Below are positions 25,921-31,428 of a stretch of DNA of 64,000 nucleotides, one piece after another; position 1 is the first letter of the stretch, and every line of letters starts with the position of its first letter. Made by a program: the position numbers and the translations under genes. The notes below the pieces were generated by a model, which was given only the letters and a program-made list of their open reading frames with translations, was not told the DNA's origin and made no database searches. Origin of the DNA: Sulfurospirillum oryzae (lineage in GTDB: Bacteria; Campylobacterota; Campylobacteria; Campylobacterales; Sulfurospirillaceae); contig NZ_JANZKZ010000005.1 in assembly GCF_025770725.1 (NCBI RefSeq), forward strand, positions 1 to 64,000, read 5' to 3'.

Positions 25921-25941
25921 AAGCCACATTATGCGTGGCTT
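25921..25941. terminator. Hairpin at convergent gene ends
   Basis: AAGCCAC (25921-25927) pairs with GTGGCTT (25935-25941), overlapping the end of the minus-strand membrane protein gene. A perfect CTTTACATGTAAAG palindrome stands at 25891-25904, between the two gene ends. Confidence 0.4.
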
Positions 25942-26519
25942 CGAGCGCAAAAGAGTCTATAGGCTTCTCGTCCTATTTTTGCTGCCTCTTTATCGGGATG
26001 AAAACCCTCTATTTCATTTTCTCTAAGATAGCTGATGCTAAAGCATTTTCGTGTTTCATTAAACCACGTTGTTGTGAAGCGGTAGCCTTTTTTACTGACA
26101 GGGCTGTGTGGGTCAACAAACCCTTCTTCTTGCGTGCAGTGCGTTGCGTCTTTGAAGTAAAAAAACTCACTTTGGCAGATTTTAAGTGCATAGCTTAACG
26201 TAAAGCGAGCGATGCCTTTATCGCATACAACGATAAGCGTTGTGCGTAACAAATCCTTTAAAAGCAGAACAATCATAAAGAAAAATGGGAAAAACAAAGC
26301 ACCGATAAGCCCATGCCAGACATCTTCTTTTTGCCACCCACTGTAGAGCATCACCAAAGAGATAGCAAAGCCAAAACCGCAAAAAAGAAGTTGCGCAATG
26401 CGCACACCAAGCTCTGAGCGTATGCGCTTTTTGATGTCAAATGATTGCACATAAACCACTTTGCCAAGCTCATGCGGAAGTTTGATGTTGTAGCGCGTTA
26501 GAGGCTCTTTTGTGTTCAT
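25929..26519 (-). CDS. Hypothetical membrane protein
   Basis: 196 aa with two adjacent hydrophobic helices (VRIAQLLFCGFGFAISLVML and LIGALFFPFFFMIVLLL) in the first half, followed by a soluble domain with YFKDATHCTQEE and paired aromatic residues. The layout suggests a membrane-anchored PH-like domain, but I see no decisive motif. It starts 11 bases after the Fic gene stop, so both may share a transcript. Confidence 0.7.
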   Translation of the reverse strand: MNTKEPLTRYNIKLPHELGKVVYVQSFDIKKRIRSELGVRIAQLLFCGFGFAISLVMLYSGWQKEDVWHGLIGALFFPFFFMIVLLLKDLLRTTLIVVCDKGIARFTLSYALKICQSEFFYFKDATHCTQEEGFVDPHSPVSKKGYRFTTTWFNETRKCFSISYLRENEIEGFHPDKEAAKIGREAYRLFCARSHA

Positions 26520-26530
26520 GACTTTAGTCC

Positions 26531-27610
26531 TTAACTATGGCTGTTTTTAAGCAGTTCAAATAAACGCTTATTGATAAAATAGACTTCTCTGCCTTTTTTT
26601 TCACTCGCCAATATGCCTATCTCTTCCAACGCTTTGAGGTAGCTTGCGGCAGTTTTGCGTGTGATGCCAAGCTCTTCGACTAAAAAGTTGATTTTGGTGT
26701 AGGGATGTTTGAAAAGCAACTCCAACAACTCTTTGGAGTAGAGTTTTGGCAAGGCTTTTAAAATGACCTCTTTGCTCTCTTGCATGGTTGCATTGATGGC
26801 ATTGATAAGCACGATGCTCTTTTGCGCTGTTTGTTCTACGCCCTCAAGCATATAAAGCACCCACTCTTGCCATGCTCCCTCGCTACTCACAGCTCTTAAA
26901 AGACGGTAATACTCTGACTTGTTTTTGATGATGTAGGAGCTAAGATACAAAATGGGTATGTCTAAAAGCCCACTGAGCATCAGGAAAAGGATATTGACGA
27001 TGCGCCCCGTTCTGCCGTTGCCATCGTAAAAAGGGTGAATCGCTTCAAACTGATAATGCACAATCGCCATTTTGATGAGCGCATCAAGCTCATCGAGCTT
27101 GGGCGTGTTGATGTACTGTTCCAAATTATCCATCAGCTCATGGATGGTTTGTGGATTTTGCGGTGGCATAAAAACGACTTCGCCGCTCTGTTCATTTTTA
27201 AGAACCGTTCCGCTTTGATAACGCATACCCGCATCGTTGCCCTCTAACACTTTTTGAATCTCGATGATATGTTTTTTGAGCAATAAACGATGCTCCCCGA
27301 TCAACGAAAACCCCGTATAAAGTGCTTCACGGTAGCGTTGCACCTCTTTGGCTTGTTGAGAGATAGCGGCACTGCTCACACTCGCACGGTACAATTCATC
27401 GTGCGTTGTGATGATGTTTTCAATCTCCGAAGAGTCTTTGGCTTCTTGCAAAGAGAGGGCATTGATCAAGATGTGCTGATTGGGGATGGAGTTCGCCACG
27501 CCTTTGAGTTCAGCCAAGGCACGATTGGCGCTGATGACTTTTTTAAGAATCTCTTTTGTCTCTAGCTCGATGGAAAGTGGAAGCGGTGCGGGAATGTACT
27601 CATCAGCCAT
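26531..27610 (-). CDS. Fic family protein (AMPylase type) with C-terminal winged helix
   Basis: 359 aa. The catalytic Fic motif HPFYDGNGRTGR is complete at residues 192-203. SSEIEN at 60-65 matches the inhibitory (S/T)xxxE(G/N) helix placed before the core, so this is a self-inhibited class II Fic. Residues about 300-355 form a winged helix (INFLVEELGITRKTAASYLKALEEIG), suggesting DNA binding. Fic enzymes transfer AMP or similar groups to protein hydroxyls. Four TTACCCA-type repeats sit just upstream and may be its own operator. Target proteins are unknown. Confidence 0.92.
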   Translation of the reverse strand: MADEYIPAPLPLSIELETKEILKKVISANRALAELKGVANSIPNQHILINALSLQEAKDSSEIENIITTHDELYRASVSSAAISQQAKEVQRYREALYTGFSLIGEHRLLLKKHIIEIQKVLEGNDAGMRYQSGTVLKNEQSGEVVFMPPQNPQTIHELMDNLEQYINTPKLDELDALIKMAIVHYQFEAIHPFYDGNGRTGRIVNILFLMLSGLLDIPILYLSSYIIKNKSEYYRLLRAVSSEGAWQEWVLYMLEGVEQTAQKSIVLINAINATMQESKEVILKALPKLYSKELLELLFKHPYTKINFLVEELGITRKTAASYLKALEEIGILASEKKGREVYFINKRLFELLKNSHS

Positions 27611-27642
27611 GAAACCCCTTTGATGTGCGTCATTTTTGTAGC

Positions 27643-27740
27643 AAATTACCCATGTATTATAAATATGGGTAATTTTTTCATTATTTTACCCAAGTATTTT
27701 GGAAATGAGTCATTTTTTTGATTTTTTACACAAATATTTA
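27643..27740. promoter_or_regulatory. TTACCCA-type repeats upstream of the Fic gene, candidate operator
   Basis: A perfect 11-bp inverted repeat (AAATTACCCAT, 27643-27653; ATGGGTAATTT, 27665-27675) is followed by TTACCCAAGTATTT near 27685 and a degenerate TTACACAAATATTT near 27725. All four share the consensus TTACcCAwrTATT and lie 33-130 bases ahead of the Fic start. Confidence 0.6.
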
Positions 27741-28012: not shown

Positions 28013-28603
28013 TCAGATATTTTTAGTATTTTCCTGTTCTTGAAGAAAAGCTATACCATCAAATGTTAAAGTATAATATGGAGGTGTTTTACTTTTGTCT
28101 ACAACCATGATATGATCCTCTTTAATAGCTTTATTTATAAGCGTTTCAAATTCTTTATTATTTTCACACCAACTTACGGCTATTGCCTCTTTATCAGATC
28201 TAAGTGTTATAAACTCTTCAAACTTATACTTTTTGTATAAATATTGTAGAAATAAAATGTATTTTTCTTTAATCAGTTTATCTTTAGTGAGCAGTAGTTG
28301 TTCAATAAGGTGTTCATCCAATAAGACTGATTTTGATACTAAAAATGTTGGCATCAGCTGTAGTATCATGTCATTTAGTTTTTCCATATTAACTTCATCG
28401 GGGTGCGCTGAAATAAAAAGTAATTCATTATATATTTCACGTAATCTTGAAGAAAAAGTATAAAAACTTTCACGCTTCAAACTAAGTTTTTCATATTGCT
28501 CAGTAGATATTTTATAGTGACCACATACATCACATTTAATAAAAAGTGTTTCATCTGTCATTTCATGCCCTACCGTGCTTTTACAAATACAACAAGTCAT
28601 CAT
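28013..28603 (-). CDS. Zinc-ribbon protein, homologous to the N-terminal part of the neighbouring TIR-like protein
   Basis: 196 aa. Two CxxC pairs (CCIC and CDVCGHYKIS) form an N-terminal zinc ribbon. The rest is helical and ends with WCENNKEFETLINKAIKEDHIMVV and PPYYTLTFDGIAFLQE. The next gene shows the same order (WCKDNLELDTLFRKAEANKHLFI, PPLSTYDAREFVE) before its effector domain, so this protein is a stand-alone copy of that recognition part. A role as regulator, sensor or decoy for the larger protein is inference. Confidence 0.75.
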   Translation of the reverse strand: MMTCCICKSTVGHEMTDETLFIKCDVCGHYKISTEQYEKLSLKRESFYTFSSRLREIYNELLFISAHPDEVNMEKLNDMILQLMPTFLVSKSVLLDEHLIEQLLLTKDKLIKEKYILFLQYLYKKYKFEEFITLRSDKEAIAVSWCENNKEFETLINKAIKEDHIMVVDKSKTPPYYTLTFDGIAFLQEQENTKNI

Positions 28604-28805: not shown

Positions 28806-29720
28806 TCATAGAATTTTAGCTTTTATCCTATTACTAACTTGCGTGTACAGGTCTTCTTCATTTTCCCAAACAATATGAGGATACTGTCTAGTGTCAAAAC
28901 TTAATTTACCAACATCAGAAGCTCTACAAGTCCATATCACAGGAATACCCATCCCCATGGCATAACCTGCTTCATAGTATACAGCATTACGTTGTCCTGT
29001 AAAATCTGCTATTACTGCTTTAGATGCTTTGATCATAGAGATTAATTCATCATCAATCTTTGTGTCATGTTCAGTAGTGCTTGAGCTGACTCTCACAGCT
29101 TCCAGTTTTCCATTTGAAGCATCTAATACAGCTCTTTTGACTGTAGCTTCAAACTGTTTATTCATCTCACTTGTAAAATGAAAAGCCATAAAGATTTTGT
29201 TTGAGTTTGTCTTATATCCAAGATTTTCAACAAATTCTCTAGCATCATATGTACTTAAAGGTGGAAAATACTGTCCGTCTTTATCTCGTTCTATGAAAAG
29301 ATGTTTATTAGCTTCTGCTTTACGAAATAAAGTATCTAACTCAAGATTATCTTTACACCAACAAATCACCATTAATCTTTGAGATGCATTGGAATAATGC
29401 TCACCATCATGTGCACAAATATACTTAATAAATCTTTCGTATTTTTGAGATATTTTCAAATCAGGCATTGTACGAAGTTTTTCTATCTCATCAGACATAA
29501 AAGTTGGAATTGAGCCTTGTGAATTTTCTTCTCTTATCCAACTTGAAGCAGTGTGTGGAAAATCAAAGTATTTTAACGAATGAAATAGTGAACCACTCAC
29601 TTCATAAGACAAACAGTAATAGCAATCAACATTGTAAGCGTCACGACCACTTAAGTTACTGTAAACCTTAGTCTGTTCGTGTGTATTTTTACAAATAGGA
29701 CATTCCATAACCCCTCCCAT
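28806..29720 (-). CDS. Zinc-ribbon protein with C-terminal TIR-like / deoxyribosyltransferase-like domain
   Basis: Up to 304 aa; MECPIC four codons in may be the real start. The N-terminus has CPIC and CYYC zinc-ribbon pairs. The middle helical part matches the downstream 196-aa protein. The last 130 residues begin NKIFMAFHF and contain DDELISMIKASKAVIADFTGQ, then NAVYYEAGYAMGMGIPVI. This is the Rossmann-like pattern shared by nucleoside 2-deoxyribosyltransferase and TIR-like nucleotide hydrolases, with the likely catalytic Glu in YYEAG. Such domains are effectors in phage defence. Location beside an integrase supports a defence role, but it is inference. Confidence 0.8.
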   Translation of the reverse strand: MGGVMECPICKNTHEQTKVYSNLSGRDAYNVDCYYCLSYEVSGSLFHSLKYFDFPHTASSWIREENSQGSIPTFMSDEIEKLRTMPDLKISQKYERFIKYICAHDGEHYSNASQRLMVICWCKDNLELDTLFRKAEANKHLFIERDKDGQYFPPLSTYDAREFVENLGYKTNSNKIFMAFHFTSEMNKQFEATVKRAVLDASNGKLEAVRVSSSTTEHDTKIDDELISMIKASKAVIADFTGQRNAVYYEAGYAMGMGIPVIWTCRASDVGKLSFDTRQYPHIVWENEEDLYTQVSNRIKAKIL

Positions 29721-30150: not shown

Positions 30151-31428
30151 TCAAGCTTGTTGAGAACCTCTGAGAGTTGCTTCATGTTGTACCCATGTGT
30201 ATAAGACACTCATTGTGATGTCGTTGGCTACAGAGTGTCCCAGTAGGTATTTAATAACGTAGTGATCTATGTCGCCTCTTAGTGATATTTGCTTCATTGT
30301 GTGGGTGAGGAGATGTCTAAAGCTGTGAAAGGTTTTGTCAGGGTCTTTAGTGACATACTTACGATTAAACTCACCGTACCACTTGCGGTAGTTTGTAGCA
30401 TAGCCCTCCAAGCCTAGCTCTAAGTGTTCCCATAGCCTCTTACAGTTGAGTTGCCTTTGACTCTTAACATAATCAATGAAGCCTAATTCAATGAGCTTAC
30501 GATGCACAGGGATGACCCTAGCTGAGGATTTATTCTTGAGTTTCTTATCTGTAGTGTTCTTGTTAATATCAATACAATAGACACCATCAATGAGTCTTAT
30601 GTCTTCTGTGTAAAGTTGTGCAATCTCATTTATTCTCATACCTTGGTACATAGCAACAAGAGGCATATAGACACGCTCAGGAGCCTCTGAGAGGGCTTTA
30701 GTGAGCCCTGTGGTGTAGATGTAAGAATGGTGAAAGAGTTGCTTTAAGTCATCCATAGAGTAGGGTACTCTGCTAGATGGACTATTCTCATCATCTTTGA
30801 TGCTCAGACCTGTGGCTACAGACTTATCAACGTAGCCCTCAAGCTCAAGCCACTTAAAGAATGAGACAATATAGCTGAGGTACTTTTGAGCTGTTGAGGT
30901 ATTGAGTGGTGGTTGATTTAGAGCTAGTATACTTTTTATACTCATGCTTAGGTAGTTAGGCTTCATCACAGGTAAACGCACGAGCGTAGCTTTGAAGTGC
31001 TGTAGGTCATCTCTAGTGATGGCTTTAGCCTGTCGATCAACATTTACGATCATTGAAAAGACACTAAACACGAATGTATAAGCCTTGAGGGTCTTGTCAG
31101 CCCATGTGTTGGTGATGACTTTATCGTTGGAGTATTTATCAGAGAGGTCTCTAAGAGTCACTAGAGGCTGTATAGGTTTGTCTTTGAGTATCCCTTTAAG
31201 TGCGGCTCTAATGAGTGTAACTTTTTCTTCATCTGAATAGATAAAACTTCTCAACTGAAAAAAGAGGTGGTTATATTGGGATGTATGAGCAATAGCTAGG
31301 TGATTGGCTTCAGTTTTACTCTTAGTTTTTAGAGAAAATCTAAGCTCATTTAGACCTATGATTGAGTGTAAATCTTTAGGAATTAGGCACTTAAAGTAGT
31401 ATATTTTATGTCGTTTGAAGAGATGCAA
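30151..31428 (-). CDS. Tyrosine recombinase / integrase of the left element
   Basis: 425 aa. The N-terminus (FKRHKIYYFKCLIPKDLHSIIGLNELRFSLKTKSK) is the arm-type binding module of phage-like integrases. Catalytic residues are Arg265 (MYQGMRINEIAQLY), His378 and Arg381 (FHSFRHLL), His408 (LLGHS) and Tyr420. All are intact. A sequence resembling the 3' end of the tRNA-Sec gene lies about 90 bases upstream of its start, consistent with integration at that site. Confidence 0.9.
   Translation of the reverse strand: MHLFKRHKIYYFKCLIPKDLHSIIGLNELRFSLKTKSKTEANHLAIAHTSQYNHLFFQLRSFIYSDEEKVTLIRAALKGILKDKPIQPLVTLRDLSDKYSNDKVITNTWADKTLKAYTFVFSVFSMIVNVDRQAKAITRDDLQHFKATLVRLPVMKPNYLSMSIKSILALNQPPLNTSTAQKYLSYIVSFFKWLELEGYVDKSVATGLSIKDDENSPSSRVPYSMDDLKQLFHHSYIYTTGLTKALSEAPERVYMPLVAMYQGMRINEIAQLYTEDIRLIDGVYCIDINKNTTDKKLKNKSSARVIPVHRKLIELGFIDYVKSQRQLNCKRLWEHLELGLEGYATNYRKWYGEFNRKYVTKDPDKTFHSFRHLLTHTMKQISLRGDIDHYVIKYLLGHSVANDITMSVLYTWVQHEATLRGSQQA

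Follow-up and report, generated by a model that had tools for sequence, protein, structure and literature searches.

The window, the whole 64,000-nucleotide stretch of Sulfurospirillum oryzae DNA analysed here, carries a Fic gene that is preceded by iterated TTACCCA sites. This raised the question of whether the Fic protein reads these sites itself and to what effect. SoFic is a widespread one-gene anti-phage system, and its control is little understood. The initial annotation had taken self-repression by the enzyme as the simplest explanation. We find that the sites form an array which is very probably SoFic's own operator, to which dimers would bind via the winged helix to repress fic or the unit following the array.

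By its domain content the gene is a class II Fic of the SoFic family with a C-terminal winged helix-turn-helix (wHTH) domain. Pfam matches were obtained to Fic_N (4.5e-28), Fic (8.3e-20) and SoFic-like_C (5.9e-27), the best PADLOC model was SoFic (7e-123, residues 4-355) and the nearest solved structures in a PDB comparison were 9vjc, 9tc4, 3eqx and 3zcn. The sequence HPFYDGNGRTGR fits the catalytic motif HPFx[DE]GNGRxxR and is found in 105 of 113 loci, the window counted. The inhibitory helix, SSEIEN, is N-terminal as in class II and fits [ST]xxxE[GN]; SSEIENI or a close variant is present in 112 of the 113 loci (window counted), the remaining locus being a gap. In the AlphaFold model (mean pLDDT 88.1) the C-terminus is folded into helices 307-314 and 318-330 and strands 334-339 and 342-347, and residue 319 is the second residue of the recognition helix. 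The winged helix initially noted at the Fic C-terminus was borne out by both Pfam and the model.

The 196-aa ORF behind fic is probably co-transcribed with it. Among the five window neighbours scanned with Pfam, no hsd-like gene was detected. In the close relative L035 (5196-9011), the same fic has a PADLOC PDC-S05 gene and a type I restriction subunit behind it, at the place where the window has the unmatched 196-aa ORF. By eye, the N-termini of two adjacent window ORFs on the minus strand, 28013-28603 and 28806-29720, each show a zinc-ribbon-like pair of cysteine motifs. The ORF at 28806-29720 matches the PADLOC TIR effector model (3.3e-12), and its Pfam match to nucleoside deoxyribosyltransferase lies under the cut-off. 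The two are possibly a further defence gene pair beside the integrase at 30151-31428.

The array 5' of fic consists of six TTACCCA(T)-type half-sites at 27626-27732, which alternate in orientation and follow one another at about 20 bp, the steps being 19 and 21 bp. In the middle is the perfect inverted repeat of the initial annotation, recovered as AAATTACCCAT/ATGGGTAATTT at 27643-27653 and 27665-27675. Its two further copies of TTACCCAwrTATT are present, but they belong to two decayed palindromes, of which they form the left halves, at a 40-bp period; TTACCCATGTATT at 27646 and TTACCCAAGTATT at 27686 are exact, whereas TTACACAAATATT at 27726 has one mismatch. The distance of 33-130 bases given there had to be corrected, as the array lies 15 to 122 bases upstream of the ATG, whose first base is 27610.

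Table. Features of the fic locus in the window.
Feature	Position	Strand	Evidence
196-aa ORF, begins 11 bases past fic	25929..26519	-	no Pfam/PADLOC match
SoFic-type Fic gene, 359 aa	26531..27610	-	Pfam, PADLOC, PDB relatives
SoFic-like_C winged-helix domain, residues 276-350	26561..26785	-	PF21248 5.9e-27, AlphaFold model
Recognition helix, T317-R318-K319 at N-terminus	26621..26662	-	AlphaFold helix 318-330, position ranking
Half-site 1, ATGACGCA, nearest start codon	27626..27633	-	
Half-site 2, TGGGTAAT, one perfect-palindrome arm	27645..27652	-	
TATAAT, possible -10, in perfect-palindrome spacer	27656..27661	-	seen in sequence; two-hexamer sigma-70 scan negative
Half-site 3, ATTACCCA, other perfect-palindrome arm	27666..27673	-	
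Half-site 4, TGGGTAAA	27685..27692	-	
Half-site 5, ATGACTCA	27706..27713	-	
Half-site 6, TGTGTAAA, most distal	27725..27732	-	

The half-site arrangement is not due to chance. Counts of the single 13-mer were uninformative and were dropped as evidence (86 matches in the window at up to 3 mismatches, 82.4 expected). It is the arrangement that is non-random, since none of 2000 dinucleotide shuffles reached the array score (observed 13, highest shuffle 4). When 180-base windows were moved through the 64 kb in steps of 30, only those overlapping the array scored above 4. The 2.63-Mb genome contains a single exact copy of the palindrome TTACCCA-N13-TGGGTAA (0 for the backward control). With up to 3 mismatches allowed, there was no sign of a wider regulon in this genome, as 109 matches against 133 for the reversed control correspond to chance.

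Homologues were taken from the family, from the phylum (65 of 397 genomes at E<=1e-80) and from a species-wide collection (best 80 of 577 relatives). A first scorer looked for alternating half-sites every 19-21 bp, allowing any regional 8-mer with at least 2 G/C. It covered 180 bases to either side of fic in 113 loci, and its cut-off was set at the 99th percentile of 7000 shuffles. Arrays were observed in 41 of 110 5' flanks and in 44 of 111 3' flanks, on both sides in no locus, and in 85 of the 113 loci overall, near-copies included. The 3' placement of about half of them (44/85) had not been foreseen in the initial annotation. Control windows 2 kb away were never positive (0/62 and 0/67), and after removal of proteins with at least 97% identity, 78 of 106 loci had an array. 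A second scorer was anchored on CAT, and 42 later loci (plasmid, phage-labelled and further phylum loci) were added, which were scored by this one only. By one scorer or the other, 108 of 138 non-redundant homologues have an array immediately 5' or 3' of fic; 2 loci were positive on both sides, and of 240 control windows 1 was positive. The conservation of the repeats at homologues, which the initial annotation had put up for checking, was thus confirmed, with half-site letters that track the recognition helix. The 30 homologues without an array include the plasmid-borne L148, L149 and L151, and chains of class words were seen in some of the 30 (L173, L176, L177, L179, L182 and L183). A search of a viral contig collection gave 105 pattern matches, none of them a relative; phage records gave 5 matches, of which the one fetched (H61/L154) is 54% identical.

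The geometry of the arrays was then counted with fixed class words and no 20-bp constraint. Distances peaked at 11-12 bp between the inner ends of facing pairs (89 pairs), at 29-30 for back-to-back half-sites (94 pairs) and at 40-41 for half-sites of the same orientation (111 pairs), with smaller peaks at the sums. Of the 85 significant arrays, 75 have 3-6 half-sites in the 180 bases scanned, and the full range is 3-9. Palindromes of a locus's own word were found 95 times beside fic and 4 times elsewhere in 654 kb, where 3 of the 4 extend one array; palindromes of other-class words were found beside fic 2.5 times on average. An unusually long 5' array was seen in L143, with 9 half-sites within the scanned bases; it runs on to about -335 and resembles duplicated blocks.

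Each array has its own word; most half-sites have five variable letters and then, on the side of the dyad, CAT. With the second scorer a word was found in 79 of the 138 homologues, and the words were grouped by residues 317-319. TRK goes with TTACCCAT/TTACTCAT (13/13), SRQ and TRQ with xTTAACAT/C (27/27; the [ST]RQ word is TTTAACAT), SRP with CTTTACAT or one letter off (5/5), HRN with GTGTGCAT/TTGTGCAC (5/5), SRL with CTATACAT/C or CTTTACAT (6/6), SRI with CTATACAT (3/4), TRI with CTATACAT/CTTTACAT (3/3) and HRQ with TTCGACAT (2/2). HRD was found with TTCGACAT and TTCGGTAT, the words of the HR[DEQ] helices as a group, ERH with ACTACCAT, HRH with TTCTACAT and QRK with GGGTACAT. Among the winged-helix positions, residue 319 was the best predictor of the operator in pairs at 50-70% catalytic identity (1.89 vs 0.96 for the next). 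When operators were sorted by nearest consensus, with P/I/L/V pooled as one operator class and D/E as one, helix class equalled operator class in 66 of 77 first-set loci. The 11 exceptions are L046, L047, L061 and L063 (K), L141 (D), L097 (N), L069, L081, L111 and L118 (I/L/V) and L080 (P after K318). The pairing of helix and bases looks textbook-like: lysine with a GGG strand, glutamine with A, acidic residues with C and aliphatic residues with T. We propose that two residues at the beginning of the recognition helix, 317 and 319, set the half-site.

Shared ancestry was separated from covariation on a tree built from the catalytic domain alone, without the wHTH domain, with independent pairs taken on starred branches. 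The best tree needs 24 changes of helix class, of which the starred branches force 10 for K and 7 for Q. In the tree-independent pairs helix and operator changed together in 7 of 7 cases for Q (p 0.016), went the same way in 8.4 of 10 and the opposite way in 0 for K (median p 0.008) and gave 4.7 of 6 for D/E (p 0.06); N and P/I/L/V had too few such pairs. L050 (K) and L125 (Q) have catalytic domains that are 95% identical, with the words TTACCCAT vs TTTAACAT, and L135 (K) and L133 (D) are 94% identical there, with TTACTCAT vs TTCGGTAT. Thus, within one clade at 94-95% catalytic identity, K, Q or D at 319 accompanies three different operators; closer pairs with L137 rest on a row that is only 31% filled. 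Conversely, Firmicutes proteins with SRK/TRK (L077, L090 and L116) share the window's TTACCCAT at 52-54% protein identity. Helix and array have switched together repeatedly. Because the half-site letters covary with the recognition helix of Fic itself, sequence-specific reading of the array by its own winged helix is strongly supported.

Mixed classes within one row were seen in the 3' array of L063 (TTCGGTAT, TCGACAT, GTTAACAT and TTACCCAT) and also in L009, L112, L124, L133 and L138; these arrays are possible fossils of earlier specificities. One genome (G019) has two SoFic-like genes of different class, L040 and L034: a broken gene with a TTACCCA-type array and an intact ERH gene with CTACCAT-like sites under the first-scorer threshold.

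For the 42 later loci, the code based on residue 319 alone gave 28 matches (L153 being a tie), 8 misses and 6 weak cases. All 16 loci with at least 80% identity to the first set matched, whereas the 26 below 80% gave 12 matches, 8 misses and the 6 weak cases. The 319-only code was rejected, as it fails for HRQ, HRH and KRQ helices. These misses fit once residue 317 is added, a post hoc rule by which histidine or lysine at 317 pairs with TTCGACAT-type sites.

A relative of the Pantoea gene is present in 278 of 5426 complete genomes. Three E. coli loci were fetched; all encode KRQ helices, and immediately 5' of fic they carry ATCGACAT/TTTAAACAT half-sites, as expected from Pantoea L153 and from L187 and in line with the 317 rule. 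Two of them contain 26 and 33 half-sites, counted at up to 2 mismatches, in stretches of 489 and 629 bp, where shuffled controls gave means of 7.7 and 9.6 and maxima of 15 and 17. Their spacing (14, 26, 30, 16) departs from the 20-bp rule. In L189 a 70-bp unit is repeated 7.4 times, and the array of L190 is shorter than those of L188 and L189. The intergenic stretch of L188 is exactly 140 bp, two 70-bp units, shorter than that of L189. Among the 60 genomes listed of the 233 matching this stretch, the span is long in 54 and nearly as long in 1, 140 bp shorter in 4 and partial in 1. The E. coli Sofic intergenic array is possibly a length-variable operator.

What would binding achieve? The 5' arrays end 0-47 bases ahead of the start codon in 40 of 41 loci (81 in L118), which is a repressor position, and the window's inverted repeats lie 5' of fic as in Fic autorepressors of the CccR kind. 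Repression is the most likely effect of the array, given the 5' position, the TATAAT inside the palindrome and the precedent of CccR. The self-repression proposed initially is therefore supported, with the reading of the array by the winged helix resting on comparative evidence and repression itself on position and CccR. The support is trimmed by two results: the code did more poorly on distant loci, and the best -10 match points forward in only 21 of 36 5' arrays. Promoter orientation was dropped as a guide, being uninformative for 5' and 3' arrays alike (23 of 41 forward in the latter). The two-hexamer scan flagged no sigma-70 promoter at the window array.

In the mechanism that we propose, SoFic dimers would bind half-sites about two DNA turns apart and in alternating orientation through the C-terminal winged helix. 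Several dimers could line up along an array, the window's six half-sites giving room for three. In the window the probable fic promoter lies within the array, so that occupied sites would switch off fic together with the ORF behind it. A potentially toxic AMPylase would in this way be kept at low levels as long as its repressor is not consumed, modified or displaced. Arrays in 3' position would silence the following unit, in some relatives the hsdM of a type I restriction system. The array, its geometry, its location beside fic and its covariation with the helix are observed; binding itself, its occurrence as dimers, repression and an influence that binding may have on AMPylation are inferred.

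A different role for the same binding would be that the winged helix holds the array mainly to set the state of the enzyme, as a storage site or 'DNA antitoxin', rather than to repress. The arrays of 26 and 33 half-sites in E. coli far exceed the needs of a promoter, 3' arrays leave the 5' end of fic uncovered, and in CbFic2 DNA binding promotes dimers and de-AMPylation while the monomer AMPylates (PMC10628234). On the other hand, 75 of the 85 significant arrays have just 3-6 half-sites in the 180 bases scanned, and the regulatory and toxic activities of CccR are reported to be independent (PMC9755527). The array may possibly control the enzyme state, which would be more of a surprise than repression, but we consider it unlikely as the main function. 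Its extreme form, with the array as the toxin's antitoxin made of host DNA, is still more doubtful. SoFic dimers parked on the array would stay inactive or de-AMPylating; a phage that degrades the host chromosome would remove the array and free active AMPylase, and the infected cell would shut down. T5 degrades host DNA early. Robust protection against T5 by E. coli Sofic has been described (PMC12249575), and in two of the three loci fetched from E. coli the array extends over several hundred bp. If it were true, the array would sense the integrity of host DNA, and the repeated switching of the helix-array code would keep co-resident or incoming copies off one shared array.

The 3' arrays could also mean that Fic is a general controller of type I restriction systems, similar to C proteins. 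In 7 of 41 non-redundant loci with a 3' array, the next gene after the array has an hsdM-like start (shared N-terminal sequence, Pfam-confirmed in L054); HsdR follows in L056 and a methylase-specificity fusion in L080 (both by Pfam). At least 19 of 80 loci have sequence clusters read as hsdM/S or hsdR no more than five genes away. This linkage is a lower bound because of short contigs, but 61 of the 80 loci have no such cluster nearby, and none of the five scanned window neighbours is hsd-like. We therefore regard a general role of this kind as rather improbable. Some 3' arrays are followed by housekeeping-looking genes, a methyltransferase and a CobQ-like gene (Pfam) and xseA (by eye), which would be odd as targets. 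The share of genes on the same strand after a 3' array (19/24) was dropped as evidence, as it is near that of other loci (34/49).

Two further explanations are very improbable. The palindromes could act as RNA, as transcript hairpins or terminators and perhaps as an RNA antitoxin, since the plus strand of the window palindrome was scored as a terminator-like hairpin and some 3' arrays have longer inner complementarity (by eye); yet the equal spacing of about 20 bp within and between palindromes suits faces of DNA and not separate hairpins, the half-site letters covary with a DNA-reading helix, and the only plus-strand ORF of at least 80 aa that ends just before the site (27290-27565) is antisense within fic. 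Equally remote is another regulator on the array, the match to the Fic helix being shared ancestry only: a separate HTH gene lies upstream of the array in two E. coli loci, but no HTH regulator is annotated in the fetched third locus or in the Pantoea stretch, the operator switches follow residue 319 on a tree without the wHTH domain, and distant proteins with the same residue 319 share the word.

In conclusion, the operator arrays of SoFic genes, the code that they follow and their placement on either the 5' or the 3' side are new within the literature searched. No SoFic operator was found among the open-access PMC papers listed; the papers behind the newest SoFic PDB entries, 9tc4, 9tch, 9tcl and 9tb0, may include work on DNA. 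The arrays give SoFic a candidate cognate DNA site with a testable code, and the natural set of helix-operator covariation, with its 24 switches on the best tree, should be useful for studying how repressor specificity evolves.

That a Fic protein with an HTH can repress itself is already known from CccR of Yersinia pseudotuberculosis, a Fic toxin and autorepressor shown experimentally (PMC9755527). As described there, it binds an inverted repeat in its own promoter in an HTH-dependent manner, and promoter activity is 3.3-fold higher in the mutant. CccR resembles SoFic in its N-terminal inhibitory helix, C-terminal HTH and dimeric state, and its half-site AGATAATCAT likewise ends in CAT toward the dyad (PMC9755527). 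It differs in being a secreted effector with 29% identity at 45% coverage to SO_4266, and in having one pair with a 26-bp spacer (PMC9755527), where the window has TTACCCA-N13-TGGGTAA and the arrays have a half-site every 20 bp. The anti-phage protein EcSofic belongs to the same family as the window Fic by PADLOC and sequence, and the E. coli gene has an array of its own. A dimer, a C-terminal domain and a small antitoxin, AS1, are described for EcSofic in PMC12249575, the passages of which name vector lac operators only and no native operator. RptR is also a repressor with repeated sites in a type I restriction-modification defence island; unlike SoFic it is a small dedicated repressor without an enzyme domain, and its direct repeats contain a TAGCTA palindrome (PMC12255303). 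CbFic2 (CBU_0822) shares DUF4172, Fic and wHTH domains with SoFic, and HTH-DNA binding changes its enzyme state, although random DNA was used and the target is host histone (PMC10628234). The passages of that paper leave the specific CbFic2 site open and call DNA binding by SoFic not yet shown. The arrays turn the question raised by CbFic2, whether there is a specific site and whether it switches the enzyme, into a direct experiment.
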